From assembly GCA_035939775.1 (NCBI GenBank), contig DASZFO010000077.1:1-53752 (forward strand): 53,752 nucleotides of DNA. Direction: 5' to 3'. Position 1 is the stretch's first letter. Each line of letters opens with the position of its first letter. The DNA comes from Pirellulales bacterium (GTDB lineage Bacteria; Planctomycetota; Planctomycetia; Pirellulales; DATAWG01). This document shows, piece after piece, positions 60-6,027 of this stretch. Both the position numbers and the translations under genes were made by a program. The notes beneath the pieces were generated by a model. It ran no database searches and was not told the origin of the DNA. It saw only the letters and a program-made list of their open reading frames with translations.

Positions 60-902
60 TCAGCGGCTCCCCGTATACAGAATGCCGAAAACGCTGTCGT
101 GCGCGATTTTCAGGCAATGCGATGGAAAATCGTGGAGTTCCCCATGGATTCGAATGACCACGGTTCCCTTCTCAACCTCATTATGATCCCAGCACTTCGT
201 CACCGGCGATTCGTCGGCGTCAAGAATATCTAAGCCCGCGAGAAAAAGCTCGTCCCATGCAGGCGCGGACTTTACCAAATACGATTTACGTTTTGAGCGC
301 CCGCACCAAATTGTTCGCCACGGCTGCAGACCTAAGTTCACGATTCTCGTCGCAACGAAATCCACCGGAAGATCCAAATGATTCGAAATATGGACGACAA
401 GATCCATCGACGGACGACTACGCTTTAGTTTCTCAGCCAGCCATTCTCTCGGCAAAAGAATCTCGTCCGCACCGAGATCGCAAAGCTGCTCAATTAAGCC
501 GTGCGCGATCCGCTTTTTCACGTTGCTCCCGGCCGCGCGAGCCATAGCGACACGGTCCTTCTCCAGCACGAGATGGACAAGCTCGTGGGCAATCGTGTGG
601 CGCCGACTCCACTCGTCAAGATCGCCATTAATTTCTATTTCAACGTCGCTCCCCGACAACATTAGCCTGCCGCGCATTGCAAGCGGGACGATCGCAACGC
701 GTTGCACGCCCAAGTGCTTCGCCAGTCGCTTCAAATCCGTCGGCGGAGCGTCCGTCCCAGCGGCGATTAATTCTCGTCTGACGAGGCGCATCGCCTCGGC
801 TTGAGTCGCTTTGCTCTTGCTCCGCTGTTCAGCGGCGGAGTCGAGCAAGCGGTTATAGAACCGAACGTCGAAGTATCGCTGATCTCGGCTGCCGTTCAGC
901 AT
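60..902 (-). CDS. ImmA/IrrE-family zinc metallopeptidase
   Basis: This 280-residue protein carries the gluzincin motif HELVH at residues 106-110, in the context HTIAHELVHLVLEKD. About 30 residues later comes a helix with E138 and the phrase ADEILLPREWL, matching the third zinc ligand and LLMP-like segment of ImmA/IrrE peptidases. Known members cleave or inactivate a cognate XRE-type repressor, as ImmA does to ImmR and IrrE/PprI does to DdrO. The gene starts 13 bases after the stop of the kinase-NDT-XRE gene, so the two are almost certainly one transcript and that XRE protein is the obvious substrate. The last 90 residues (after about 190) have no recognised match and may be a sensor region. 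Family assignment is firm; substrate and trigger are inference. Confidence 0.85.
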   Translation of the reverse strand: MLNGSRDQRYFDVRFYNRLLDSAAEQRSKSKATQAEAMRLVRRELIAAGTDAPPTDLKRLAKHLGVQRVAIVPLAMRGRLMLSGSDVEIEINGDLDEWSRRHTIAHELVHLVLEKDRVAMARAAGSNVKKRIAHGLIEQLCDLGADEILLPREWLAEKLKRSRPSMDLVVHISNHLDLPVDFVATRIVNLGLQPWRTIWCGRSKRKSYLVKSAPAWDELFLAGLDILDADESPVTKCWDHNEVEKGTVVIRIHGELHDFPSHCLKIAHDSVFGILYTGSR

Positions 903-915
903 GGCGTCAGGCCTC

Positions 916-2736
916 TTATTTTCGGTCGGCGTCGTCTGGAAAAAGCTGTAGGCGGCGTCCTCCTCTTTCTTCGGATTCTCTTAGGTGGCGCGCCTCCAAC
1001 GCCCTGTGGCGTGCAACCCACTGGTCTTCGCTGATATTCGTCCCTTCGCCGCTCGCCGCTAACTGCCGCAAATAGTCGTCACGAAGATCGATGAACGAGT
1101 CCGCGTTCCAACCCGCCTTCTTTGCGGTGTTTTCGAGTCGCTTTAAATTCGCGTCCGGTGTCGTCATATTACGCGAGGCTTTGGGCATTTCGTCGCCGAA
1201 AAGGTCATTTAGCGAGGCGCCTAAGGCGACGGCAATCCGTTCGATCAGGTCAATCGATGCGCTCTGATAATACCCCTTTTCGATGGCCTCGAGCAGTCGG
1301 GGCGAGACGCCCAATGAATCCGCGAGATCGCCGGGCGAGCCGTACCCCTTTCTCGTCCGCAAGGTTGTAAGACGGTGTCCGAGCGGTACCGCGCCGCCAG
1401 CATGGACGAGCGTCTTCCAACGCCGAACCGTACCGAGATTGGCGCCTAGGGACCTCCGCAGCTTGCGCTCCAGGTCCTCTGGCGTCGCGTACGTGATATC
1501 GTCGAGGAGGTGCGCAGGACTGCCCGTCACCATCCGCGAAACCGTGCTACTATCCTCGCGCACGAGGAGGATTGTCGGAATGCTGTGACTTGTCGCAATC
1601 TCGATTTCTTGTCCAACGCCGAAACTCGGTCGATTGGCGATCACGAAGAGTAAGTCAGCGGCAACAACTCGCTCGCGGTCAAGCCGATAGACGACGCGCG
1701 GATCAACGCCTTTATTCAACTGCGGATCGGTAGCCTTCCGAGGCTGGTACACGTAAAGGCCGTACTCCTTGGCGGTCTCGGCGATCTTACTGGATACGAA
1801 CATGATCGCTTCACGAGAATCGGGGTCCAAGCCGGTTAATGCCGTGGCGATGTACCCGTGAAGCGGCTCAATAGGTTCCACGCTTGCGAGTTCCGAGTTC
1901 GCACGCTCCAAAAGACTCCGAACGTCCGCGCACGTACCCGGTCGCTTTTCCGGCAATTTGTTCAAGAGTTTCTGCGCCGCGTCAAAGAGAATGGAGGACA
2001 CGCCGTCTGTCGCCTTCACAGCGGGATCAAAACGCGGATTGTCGGTCTCGATCAAGCGGGTGAGGCGTGCCCACTGTCCCTCATCCGCGAATACCTGCTC
2101 CCCGTGCAGTAGCGCATAAATAATGGTTCCCAGGGAATACAAATCAGTCCGATCGTCGTAGCTGCGGCCAAAAAGCATCTCGGGGGATGAATTCCGGATC
2201 GTCCCGATGAAACTTTCCTCCGGCGTCAGACGCGAGTCTGAGAGGATCTGTACAACACCCAGGTCCATCAACTTCACGTCGAAATTGGACGTCACTAATG
2301 CGTTTGCAGGTTTGATATCACGGTGACGAACCCCGTTGTCATGAAGATGCGAGACGGCGCTTAGCAATTGACTGACAAACCGCATGACCAACCGCCGGGG
2401 AGCGGGGTGGAATTGCTCAATCCATTTGTCGAGCGGAATTCCGTCGACATACTCCATCACCAGGAACGGCGCTGAATCGGACGTTCCGGCGGGCACGTAT
2501 TCGTGCATCCGCACGAGATTCGGGTGGGAAAACTGCGACCCAACTTTGAACTCGCGCTCTATTCTGTCGAACTGCCGCGCTTGTTGAAGGATTTCAGGCT
2601 TGTAGCGCTTGATTGCAACGAGATCACCAGGGCGAGCGTACGCCTTCGGCGCGACCGGCGTTGCAAGAAAAACTTCGCCCGCGGCGCCTTCGCCCAATTT
2701 ATCCACGACCCTGAAGTCGCCGATCTGCTCAGTCAT
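916..2736 (-). CDS. Ser/Thr protein kinase fused to NDT-like domain and XRE HTH
   Basis: This 606-residue protein has three parts. Residues 1-285 are a Hanks-type kinase with glycine loop GEGAAG (15-20), ATP lysine K43, HRDIKPAN with catalytic D140 and N145, a DLG metal motif (158-160, in place of DFG) and SPE at 184-186, so it looks active. Residues 293-430 (GYIATALTGL, a DRERVVAADLLFVIANRPSFGVGQEIEIA block, IPTILL) resemble nucleoside 2-deoxyribosyltransferases; E377 sits where their catalytic glutamate lies. Residues about 452-515 form an XRE helix-turn-helix. The C-terminal 90 residues are charged and unassigned. I chose ATG 2736, which begins just before the kinase fold and has a GGGGGCGAG stretch upstream, over ATG 2787. 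No membrane helix is seen. It precedes the ImmA gene and lies 120 bases after nrdJ. Domain calls are sound, the NDT label moderately so, and the combined role is unknown. Confidence 0.82.
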   Translation of the reverse strand: MTEQIGDFRVVDKLGEGAAGEVFLATPVAPKAYARPGDLVAIKRYKPEILQQARQFDRIEREFKVGSQFSHPNLVRMHEYVPAGTSDSAPFLVMEYVDGIPLDKWIEQFHPAPRRLVMRFVSQLLSAVSHLHDNGVRHRDIKPANALVTSNFDVKLMDLGVVQILSDSRLTPEESFIGTIRNSSPEMLFGRSYDDRTDLYSLGTIIYALLHGEQVFADEGQWARLTRLIETDNPRFDPAVKATDGVSSILFDAAQKLLNKLPEKRPGTCADVRSLLERANSELASVEPIEPLHGYIATALTGLDPDSREAIMFVSSKIAETAKEYGLYVYQPRKATDPQLNKGVDPRVVYRLDRERVVAADLLFVIANRPSFGVGQEIEIATSHSIPTILLVREDSSTVSRMVTGSPAHLLDDITYATPEDLERKLRRSLGANLGTVRRWKTLVHAGGAVPLGHRLTTLRTRKGYGSPGDLADSLGVSPRLLEAIEKGYYQSASIDLIERIAVALGASLNDLFGDEMPKASRNMTTPDANLKRLENTAKKAGWNADSFIDLRDDYLRQLAASGEGTNISEDQWVARHRALEARHLRESEERGGRRLQLFPDDADRK

Positions 2737-2856
2737 GACACTCGCCCCCGATTGTTTAATTTCGCGCTGAGCGCGGGGAATGTGCATTCGACGCCGCTCA
2801 GTATTCGTCCGTTTAGTCTCTCATATTCTGCGGTCCTGTGCTTGCCGTCGTCCTCC

Positions 2857-5800
2857 TTACGAACATCCCATGCTGTTGCCGCAGTTGTAGCAGAGGTAGC
2901 AGTTGCCGCTGCGCACTGTGATCGAGCCGCAGTTGTCGCAGCTTGGGGCGTCGAGTTGGAATTTGGCGAATTGCTCGCTTTGCGTCGAGAAGTGGCCCCC
3001 GTTGAGATCGACTTTCATCGCCACGCCGGCGCGCTCGAGGAGGGCCGCGTCGGGGCGGGATGGGGACTGGGGGCTGGGGGCTGGGGGCTGGGAAGTCGAG
3101 CGTGCCTTTTTTTCTGGGCGCTTTTGCGCGGTTGCCCCCTCACCCCGGCCCTCTCCCGCCAGGGGAGAGGGAGATGAAGTTGGCGCGCTCCGTTGGATTG
3201 TCGGTCCGGTTGAATGCTTGGCTGCCGGCGCTTTTGTCAGGCCGCGGGCCTGACCTACGGGCTTGGAACTGGTCCGGGGTGTGACCACCCCGGCTCGTTG
3301 TTCGTCGCCAAGCAGTCCGCGCTGGTCTTCAATCGGCGCGTCGTCGCTCTTTGGGATCACGGTCGGGCCTTCGTCGCCGAGAAGGCCTTGCTGCGCTTCG
3401 CGGAAGCCGGGTAGGAAGGTGATCCCCAGCCAGCGGAAGATGTAGTCGACGATGCTCTTGGCGATCCGGATGTCCGGGTTCTTGGTGTGCCCCATCGGCT
3501 CGAAGCGGGTGTGTGAGAACTTGTTCACATACACTTCGAGCGGCACCCCGTATTGCCAGCTCATCGAGACGGCCGTGCCGAAGCAATCCATCAGCCCGCC
3601 GATCGTGCTGCCCTCCTTGGCCATCGTGATGAACAGCTCGCCCGGCCGGCCGTCTTCATAGAGGCCGACCGTGATGTAGCCCTCGTGCCCGGACACGCTG
3701 AACTTGTGCGTGATCGAGTTGCGAGTGTCCTGCAAGTGCTCGCGGCGCGGGACGGCGGCTTGTTTGGCGGCCGCCTTATCCCCTTCGCTCGAAGTGGAAA
3801 GCGGTTGACTCTCCTTCGAACCGTCGCGATAGATGGCCAGGGCCTTGAGGCCCAGCCGCCAGCCTTCGAGATAGGCGCTGGCGATGTCGGCCGGGGTCGT
3901 GTCGCGCGGCATGTTCACCGTCTTCGAGATGGCCCCCGAAAGGAACGGTTGGGCCGCGGCCATCGTCAGCACATGCGCCCGCCAGCCGATCGACCTGGTG
4001 CCGTTGCGCGGTTGGAAGGCACAGTCGAACACGGGCAGGTGCTCCGGCTGCAATTCCGGGGCGCCTTCGATCGTGTCGTGCTTGTCGATATAGGCCAGGA
4101 TCGACTCGATCTGCGGCTCGTCGTACCCGAGGGTCTTGAGCCCCAGCGGCACCGTTTGGTTGACGATCTTGAGCATGCCGCCGCCGGCAAGCTGTTTGTA
4201 CTTCACCAGGGCGATGTCCGGCTCGATCCCGGTCGTGTCGCAATCCATCATGAAGCTGATGGTGCCGGTCGGGGCGAGCACGGTGGCCTGGGCGTTGCGG
4301 AAGCCGCTGGCGCGCCCGGCGTCGAGCACTTCGTCCCACAGACTGCGGGCCGCTTCCTTCAAATCGCCGGGGCAGGCTTCGTCGATTCGCTCGACCGCGT
4401 CGCGGTGCATCTGCATCACGTGCAGCATCGGATCGCGATTGATCTCGAACGAATCGAACGGCCCGACCGCCGCGGCCAATTCGCTGCTGGTGAGGTTCGC
4501 GGCGCCGTGCAGCAGGGCCGTGATCGCCCCGCAAAGGCCGCGCGCGGCGTCTGAATCATACGGCAAGCCGCTGGCCATGATCAGGCTGCCGAGGTTCGAA
4601 TAACCCAGCCCGAGCGGGCGGAAGCGATGGCTGTTCTCGGCGATCCGCTTGGTCGGATAGCTGGCATGATCGACGAGGATTTCCTGGGCGATGAAGTAGA
4701 TGCGGCACGCATGATGGAACCGGTCGACGTCGAACGAGCCATCCTCATTGCGGAACTTCATCAGGTTGATGCTCGCCAGGTTGCAGGCCGTGTCGTCGAG
4801 GAACATGTACTCCGAGCAAGGATTCGAGGCGTTGATCCGCCCCGAGTTCGGGCAGGTGTTCCAGTGGTTGATCGTCGAATCGTATTGCACTCCAGGATCG
4901 CCGCACGACCAGGCGCATTCCGACATTCGGCCGAGCATCTCACGGGCCGGCCACGATGGCCCGGCCTCGTTCGGGTTCGTGACCCAATGCGTGACCCAGG
5001 GCTTGTCTTCGGTGACGGCCTGCATGAACTCGTCGGTGACGCGCACCGAGAGGTTCGCGTTCTGGAACATGATCGAGCTGTAGGCCTCGCCGTTGAAGTT
5101 GGCCTCGTAGCCTCCCTTCTCGATCAGCACCAGCGCCTTCTTCTCCTCTTTGGCCTTGCACTCGATGAACTCCATGATGTCGGGATGGCCGACCTTGAGC
5201 GATTGCATCTTGGCGGCGCGGCGCGTCTTGCCGCCGCTCTTCACGACCGCGGCGATCTGATCGTAGACGCGCATGAACGAAAGCGGGCCGCTCGGCCTGC
5301 CGCCCCCCGAGAGCTTCTCGCGATGCGAGCGCAGCGTGCTGAGATCGGTCCCCGTGCCCGAGCCGAACTTGAACAGCATGGCCTCGCTGCGGGCGAGTTC
5401 CATGATGTCTTCCATGTCGTCTCTGACGCTCTGAATGAAGCAGGCGGAGCCTTGCGGGTATTCGTACGGGTTCTCCGGTTGGTTGACCGTCTCGGCCACC
5501 GGGTCCCAGTGCCAATTGCATTGCGCCCCTTTGACGCCGTATTGATGATAGAGGCCGACGTTGAACCAGACCGGGCTGTTGAACGCCCCGTGCTGGTGCA
5601 GGCAGAGCCAAGTCAAGTCGCGGTAGAAATTCTCGCCGTCTTCGGCGCTGGCGAAGTAGCCGTCTTGCAGCCCCCAATCGGCGATCGTGCGACTGACGCG
5701 ATGGATGATCTGGCGGACGCTATTCTCGCGCTGCGGCGTGTTGATCTCGCCATAGAAGTATTTGCTGACCACCACGTTCGTGGCCAACTGGCTCCAAGAC

Positions 5801-6027
5801 TTGGGGATCTCGCAATTGGTCTGCTCGAAGAGCACGCCCCCCGATTCGTCCTTGATCGCCGCGGTGCGCTGGTCCCACTCGACGGTGTCGAACGGATCGG
5901 CAATATCGGTTGGGCAAAAGACCGGCTCGACGGCCAGGCCTTCCGGGCGGCGCCGGGCAGAATGGCGACGCGAACCACTGGTCTTGGAAATGGGGTTTTT
6001 CATGCTACCGAGTTCGGCTCGGGCCAT
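2857..6027 (-). CDS. nrdJ: Adenosylcobalamin-dependent (class II) ribonucleotide reductase
   Basis: This 1056-residue enzyme reduces ribonucleotides to deoxyribonucleotides using a B12-derived radical, so it works without oxygen and without a small subunit. Visible motifs are GSACF near residue 195 (redox cysteine), NPCSE near 402 (radical-site cysteine and glutamate), and APTGTISFMMDCDTTGIEPD near 590, typical of the B12-dependent class. At the C-terminus (about 1028-1050) two CxxC pairs in CDNCG and CYNCG resemble the zinc ribbon or shuttle cysteines of this family. Residues about 950-990 are a low-complexity linker in which a dispersed genomic repeat is translated in frame as SPSPLAGEGRGEG. 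Start ATG 6027 has AAGGAG eight bases upstream, better than ATG 6003. A perfect palindrome lies 43 bases upstream (6070-6089). Confidence 0.95.
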   Translation of the reverse strand: MARAELGSMKNPISKTSGSRRHSARRRPEGLAVEPVFCPTDIADPFDTVEWDQRTAAIKDESGGVLFEQTNCEIPKSWSQLATNVVVSKYFYGEINTPQRENSVRQIIHRVSRTIADWGLQDGYFASAEDGENFYRDLTWLCLHQHGAFNSPVWFNVGLYHQYGVKGAQCNWHWDPVAETVNQPENPYEYPQGSACFIQSVRDDMEDIMELARSEAMLFKFGSGTGTDLSTLRSHREKLSGGGRPSGPLSFMRVYDQIAAVVKSGGKTRRAAKMQSLKVGHPDIMEFIECKAKEEKKALVLIEKGGYEANFNGEAYSSIMFQNANLSVRVTDEFMQAVTEDKPWVTHWVTNPNEAGPSWPAREMLGRMSECAWSCGDPGVQYDSTINHWNTCPNSGRINASNPCSEYMFLDDTACNLASINLMKFRNEDGSFDVDRFHHACRIYFIAQEILVDHASYPTKRIAENSHRFRPLGLGYSNLGSLIMASGLPYDSDAARGLCGAITALLHGAANLTSSELAAAVGPFDSFEINRDPMLHVMQMHRDAVERIDEACPGDLKEAARSLWDEVLDAGRASGFRNAQATVLAPTGTISFMMDCDTTGIEPDIALVKYKQLAGGGMLKIVNQTVPLGLKTLGYDEPQIESILAYIDKHDTIEGAPELQPEHLPVFDCAFQPRNGTRSIGWRAHVLTMAAAQPFLSGAISKTVNMPRDTTPADIASAYLEGWRLGLKALAIYRDGSKESQPLSTSSEGDKAAAKQAAVPRREHLQDTRNSITHKFSVSGHEGYITVGLYEDGRPGELFITMAKEGSTIGGLMDCFGTAVSMSWQYGVPLEVYVNKFSHTRFEPMGHTKNPDIRIAKSIVDYIFRWLGITFLPGFREAQQGLLGDEGPTVIPKSDDAPIEDQRGLLGDEQRAGVVTPRTSSKPVGQARGLTKAPAAKHSTGPTIQRSAPTSSPSPLAGEGRGEGATAQKRPEKKARSTSQPPAPSPQSPSRPDAALLERAGVAMKVDLNGGHFSTQSEQFAKFQLDAPSCDNCGSITVRSGNCYLCYNCGNSMGCS
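3136..3173. repeat. Dispersed palindromic repeat inside nrdJ
   Basis: The segment reads CCCTCACCCC, GGCCCTCTCCC, then the near-complementary GGGGAGAGGGAG, so it can form a hairpin. It is translated in frame within the linker before the zinc-ribbon tail of the reductase. A second copy with the same layout lies at 39817-39852 between genes. Similar CCTCACCCC...CTCTCCC elements are widely dispersed in environmental bacterial genomes. Confidence 0.8.

Follow-up and report, generated by a model that had tools for sequence, protein, structure and literature searches.

Gene organisation at the contig end

The window, by which we mean the whole 53,752-nucleotide stretch of contig DASZFO010000077.1 from a Pirellulales bacterium, carries close to its first base two co-directional genes separated by 13 bp (916-2736 and 60-902, minus strand). 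An earlier note had described them as one chain of kinase, NDT-like and XRE domains followed by an M78 (ImmA/IrrE) protease, and the open reading frames and Pfam matches bore out both coordinates and composition. The features are as follows.

916..2736, minus strand: kinase - DNPH1/NDT-like - XRE fusion gene, 606 aa (Pfam)
1933..2712, minus strand: Hanks-type Ser/Thr kinase domain, residues 9-268 (Pfam PF00069, Pkinase, E=3.3e-42)
1441..1857, minus strand: DNPH1/Rcl-like (NDT superfamily) domain, residues 294-432 (profile, fold and residue table)
1201..1383, minus strand: XRE/Cro-CI helix-turn-helix, residues 452-512 (HTH_31 4e-8 over residues 452-509; HTH_3 2.6e-5)
60..902, minus strand: ImmA/IrrE-type (M78) metalloprotease gene, 280 aa (PF06114 9.4e-8)
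573..587, minus strand: HELVH zinc motif of the protease, residues 106-110, intact
2737..2856, minus strand: presumed promoter/operator region, the 120 bp that separate nrdJ from the kinase gene

Translation from an extra in-frame ATG at 2787 would give the fusion protein a length of 623 aa. Upstream, 120 bp from the kinase gene and co-directional with it, lies nrdJ (2857-6027, minus strand). A scan of the gap between them detected no sigma-70-like promoter, and an operator search upstream of the module returned no clear inverted repeat. Since the contig stops 59 bp beyond the M78 gene, any downstream operon is invisible in the window; an overlap search found no contig reaching beyond window base 1. 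GC3 is 0.63-0.66 in the module versus 0.82-0.84 in nrdJ and recA, which argues only weakly for a foreign origin because the z-score is about -1.

All catalytic motifs of the kinase were intact (GEGAAGEV at 15, VAIK at 40-43, HRDIKPAN at 138, DLG at 158 and SPE at 184). Its top PADLOC matches were defence kinases (MAD6, PD-T4-6); we set this identity aside, as these are generic kinase matches and the PADLOC kinase models are unspecific. The window genome contains 49 kinase-like matches. At the other end of the protein, Foldseek matched the helix-turn-helix to the DNA-binding domain of SinR.

In PADLOC the M78 proteins matched CapP best, at 6.9e-15 for the window protease and 2e-23 to 1e-25 for its relatives. 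An AF2 model of the window protease, built from two sequences and unresolved in the C-terminal third that would show any PprI GAF-like domain, matched the PprI/IrrE fold at 1.3e-6 (including ssDNA-bound PprI) and CapP more weakly, at 1.1e-3. The signal that activates PprI, and likewise CapP, is ssDNA (PMC10904395).

The middle domain is predicted to be DNPH1-like

By itself, the middle domain scored 0.0064 against Pfam Nuc_deoxyrib_tr, under the curated cut-off, and E=0.0018 against an NDT structure. We built a profile from the window domain, a fused relative (L023, which is the L010/L081 locus of the Planctomycetota genome G021) and standalone relatives, and this family profile matched rat Rcl/DNPH1 (7e-21), human DNPH1 (5e-19), NDT 7m5h (3e-10) and MilB (7e-10) in the PDB. 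The AF2 model of the domain (mean pLDDT 78, with values over 85 for most of its length) aligned with human DNPH1 (8rpt) at Z=16.3 and 2.4 A over 133 residues, with MilB and NDTs next. Y295, D353, S371, E377 and S400 were conserved in the residue table, so that the catalytic Tyr, Asp and Glu of DNPH1/Rcl are present (Y295; D353, in the column of Rcl D69 and human D80; and E377); the column of Rcl Arg19 is occupied by Thr301.

On the strength of the profile match, the modelled fold and the retained Tyr, Asp and Glu, which complete the catalytic triad, we assign the domain to the DNPH1-like, nucleoside-5'-monophosphate branch of the NDT superfamily. The earlier suggestion of an NDT-like domain therefore stands at the level of the superfamily, by profile as well as fold, and gives way to a DNPH1-like rather than a classical NDT identity. 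That suggestion had also placed the family glutamate, which is E377 in an intact NDT-type active site, and the proposed profile and Foldseek comparison of this region matched a catalytic fold. Characterised hydrolases of the DNPH1/NDT superfamily use deoxy- or ribonucleoside 5'-monophosphates (PMC12884076).

The closest standalone proteins were 36-39% identical. At three loci (L024, L025 and L027) they belong to an operon from Anaerolineaceae that also encodes class II ribonucleotide reductase, a DCD-type deaminase and thymidylate synthase, and a further standalone relative (L050) lies on a viral contig with a dCMP-deaminase-like gene adjoining. These dNTP-metabolism settings (L024, L050) support a deoxynucleotide ligand for the branch to which the window domain belongs.

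NDT-XRE proteins are mostly paired with M78 proteases in Planctomycetota

Searches for relatives covered the window's phylum, class, order and one family. The NDT-XRE fusion was found at eight loci, namely the window and seven other Planctomycetota genomes (L081 in G021, L080 in G267, L089 in G720, L090 in G542, L091 in G551, L102 in G940 and L082 in G384). An M78 gene lies directly downstream of, or overlaps, the NDT-XRE gene at seven of the eight. With two M78 genes in all in the 6.4-Mb window genome, this frequency indicates that the pairing is conserved and not due to chance, and the pairing of homologues with an ImmA-type protease on which the earlier note had staked its proposal is thus seen in other genomes. 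The exception, L082, has no M78 gene and carries a Fic-type gene in front; at L082:866-2527 the RHH, Fic and NDT-HTH genes are consecutive, and their neighbours are a JAB-ThiF (E1-like) gene in divergent orientation and a gene for a resolvase.

The kinase behaves differently. A search of other genomes for the three-domain architecture that the note had emphasised did not extend it, the kinase-NDT-XRE chain being seen in the window genome only (1/8 loci), and we consequently regard the kinase as an add-on rather than part of the core. L081 has another N-terminal extension in its place, HTH-like in appearance. A small RHH-like gene lies ahead at six of the eight loci (the RHH_1 matches are weak, and L091 and L102 were judged by eye), and three of these six also have a gene for a protein with two membrane segments. 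These genes (L090:6299-6664, L091:6190-6558 and L102:6723-7109) lie between the RHH-like gene and NDT-XRE and encode 121-128 aa, the membrane segments being assigned by eye; a Pfam scan of two of the proteins gave nothing above cut-off. The protein is a possible membrane effector.

The members also differ at the active site. According to the residue table, the catalytic Asp column holds Asp in the window, L081 and the first of two tandem NDT-XRE units that share one ORF in L091 (6474-8531), and Asn in L080, L089, L090, L102 and L082. The second L091 unit has Thr in this column and has also lost the Glu and one conserved Ser. Judged from these residues, the pattern would suit, but does not prove, a gradual change in this family from enzymes to sensors: human D80N has hmdUMP bound in a crystal structure (8rps, matched in the fold search), but the phage protein DmtZ is active despite an Asn at the catalytic Asp position (PMC12884076).

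Searches of plasmid and phage records with the NDT-XRE region gave no match, and scans of viral contigs returned one standalone relative only and none with the L089 protein as query. The scan outside Planctomycetota used narrow patterns from the window, L081 and the standalone branch, which divergent fusions there may escape.

A SPARSA operon follows the pair in one relative

The gene order at L089 is RHH, NDT-XRE, M78, SIR2-APAZ and short pAgo, and the stop of the M78 gene and the start of SIR2-APAZ share an ATGA (4-bp overlap). The SIR2-APAZ protein matched PADLOC Aga_SIR2-PNTD1-PNTD2 at 6.6e-184 and the product of the gene after it matched pAgo_I at 2.6e-185, which by profile identifies the downstream genes as a SPARSA operon (SIR2-APAZ plus short pAgo). 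This is the one locus of the eight at which a well-known defence system was seen to share the operon. Elsewhere, L102 has a divergent PDC-S48 candidate defence gene, and genes of mobile-element type are neighbours in L090 (integrase), L091 (ParB-like), L080 (Replic_Relax) and L082 (resolvase). No obvious effector is found in L080, L090 and L091 except, at most, the protein with two membrane segments. The proximity to defence genes that the note had proposed to score is thus found directly after the pair in L089, with candidate defence or mobile-element genes near other members.

Comparison with known switches

CapH+CapP and CapK+CapS are regulators of adjacent immune operons (PMC13373217). The pair described here resembles CapH+CapP in having an HTH repressor beside an M78 protease and in the CapP matches of the protease, best in PADLOC and weak by fold; a place at the head of an immune operon is seen in L089, whereas in the window the contig ends after the protease gene. 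It differs in that the window repressor has kinase and DNPH1-like domains and that an RHH-like gene precedes the pair in most relatives; CapH is not known to have a kinase or nucleotide-enzyme domain. With PprI/IrrE-DdrO, the Deinococcus DNA-damage switch, it shares an M78 protease of the same fold, paired in principle with an XRE-type repressor, but that switch has no operon with a sensor-fused repressor and regulates dispersed DNA-repair genes. CapK+CapS likewise combines a kinase and a DNA-binding repressor over an adjacent immune operon (PMC13373217); CapK, however, is a GHKL/STAS kinase and CapS an STAS-wHTH protein, whereas the window has a Hanks-type kinase in one chain with the repressor, a protease is present, and the fusion gave no Pfam match to a GHKL or STAS domain.

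The middle domain shares with DNPH1/Rcl and MilB, which are nucleoside 5'-monophosphate N-glycosidases, its fold, the Tyr/Asp/Glu set and the PSxGVGxE and SxMxxG motifs, and departs from them in Thr301 and in its fusion to a kinase and an XRE domain. Retron NDT-HTH effectors (e.g. Retron-Eco1) similarly join an NDT-superfamily domain and an HTH in a single protein, but no reverse transcriptase or ncRNA was noticed among the window genes, on a contig that ends downstream, and an M78 partner is present instead; the Retron-Eco1 effector was absent among the fold matches listed, and a relation may still exist. SPARSA would be the controlled effector at L089, where it lies directly downstream of the pair; none is visible in the window. 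The claim that no described system has this composition stands for the literature searched, in which neither SPARSA with ImmA nor deoxyribosyltransferase with metallopeptidase yielded a description, although CapH+CapP and PprI-DdrO work on the same principle.

A candidate protease-relieved repressor switch

On balance we lean slightly towards reading the module as a protease-relieved repressor switch of the immune-operon type, CapH+CapP-like, with a nucleotide-binding domain and, in the window genome, a kinase as extra inputs. The XRE domain would probably bind the module's own promoter and repress the module and the adjacent operon. Once activated, the M78 protease would cleave the XRE protein and lift repression, in the manner of CapP acting on CapH or PprI on DdrO. 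A small nucleotide, with a (deoxy)nucleoside 5'-monophosphate the likeliest candidate, would be the ligand of the DNPH1-like domain, and the ligand-bound domain may set the state of the XRE protein or its susceptibility to cleavage. The N-terminal Hanks kinase of the window genome may add a further input by phosphorylating its own chain or the protease. This switch is supported by the M78 pairing, the SPARSA overlap in L089, the CapP and PprI matches and the DNPH1-like domain. What we observed are the domains, the active-site residues, the pairing, the mobile setting of several relatives and the one SPARSA link; we infer the DNA binding, cleavage, ligand, signal, phosphorylation and kinase role, and the operon downstream in the window genome. 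Against the switch count the window itself, where the contig ends before any downstream operon is visible, the single known defence operon in eight loci, the three loci without an obvious effector (L080, L090 and L091), the operator search that found none, L082 without an M78 gene and the single case of the kinase fusion; the complete catalytic residues of the window domain would also suit an enzyme or an effector.

A more specific form of the switch, possible in our view but rather unlikely, is that the repressor reads a nucleoside 5'-monophosphate through its DNPH1-like pocket, and that ligand state and kinase together license cleavage and turn immunity on; dNMPs from phage-degraded host DNA, or nucleotides modified by phages such as hydroxymethyl-dUMP/dCMP, would be examples of ligands. 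The triggers of the known immune-operon controllers CapH+CapP, CapW and CapK+CapS are ssDNA or DNA damage, and the nucleotide pool, which phages alter strongly on infection, is suggested here as a second type of trigger. Short-Argonaute (SPARSA) operons would also gain a candidate transcriptional controller, none being described in the literature found.

Alternatively, the DNPH1/NDT-like domain could itself be the effector or toxin and hydrolyse dNMPs or NAD, inhibited by the XRE domain until the M78 cut frees it. Its catalytic residues are all intact in the window, L080, L090 and L091 appear self-contained without a separate known effector, and NDT-HTH proteins are toxic effectors in some retrons (PMC12548924, which cites NAD+-hydrolysing filaments for Retron-Eco1). 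We nevertheless judge this unlikely: the L089 pair precedes a complete effector system, the nearest fold is a dNMP hydrolase and not an NADase, one L091 copy lacks the Glu, and Asn replaces the catalytic Asp in five members, even if DmtZ is still active with Asn (PMC12884076). It is more doubtful still that the kinase is a growth-arresting effector, as in KKP or PD-T4-6, with NDT-XRE and M78 controlling its level or release. Defence through a toxic kinase is well established (KKP, PMC11341870), the motifs are complete and the top PADLOC matches, though generic, are defence kinases; those models are unspecific, however, such kinases are common in the window genome, and all other members lack the kinase and retain the core pair.

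Two readings without an immune operon appear highly improbable. ImmA/ImmR switches of ICEs are well known, and several members lie near integrase, ParB-like, Replic_Relax or resolvase genes, as would suit a prophage or integrative-element switch (ImmR/ImmA type) for excision or lysis; yet in the window the module is flanked by housekeeping genes (nrdJ, recA), among which no integrase was noticed, and the L089 pair continues into SPARSA. Least credible to us is a housekeeping dNMP-sensing regulator of deoxynucleotide pools that controls the adjoining nrdJ, in line with the nucleotide-pool theme that the earlier note drew from this neighbour. The adjacency and shared direction of nrdJ, the DNPH1-like domain and the standalone relatives in dNTP operons speak for it, but nrdJ lies upstream of the module, not downstream, and no other member was seen adjoining nrdJ. 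Moreover, the sister genome G001 retains nrdJ (78% identical) without the module and has an unrelated gene next to it. The adjacency is therefore not conserved, and the theme fails as far as it derives from nrdJ.

Additional observations

The other M78 gene of the window genome (L114:687-2388) encodes 395 aa, an M78 domain with an N-terminal extension that is HTH-like by eye, and has a DUF4411 gene and then what appears to be an HNH gene after it, an arrangement that resembles RmrA/RmrT-type pairs. Among standalone NDT-like genes, one (L093:6328-6840) adjoins hsdR of a type I restriction operon and another (L092:6742-8191) overlaps a DCD (dCTP deaminase-like) gene. Within the nrdJ frame of the window, a REP-like GC-rich palindrome at 3133-3174 lies in the linker ahead of the C-terminal Cys motif and encodes SPSPLAGEGRGEGA; at this linker the sister genome has unrelated low-complexity sequence instead of the palindrome.
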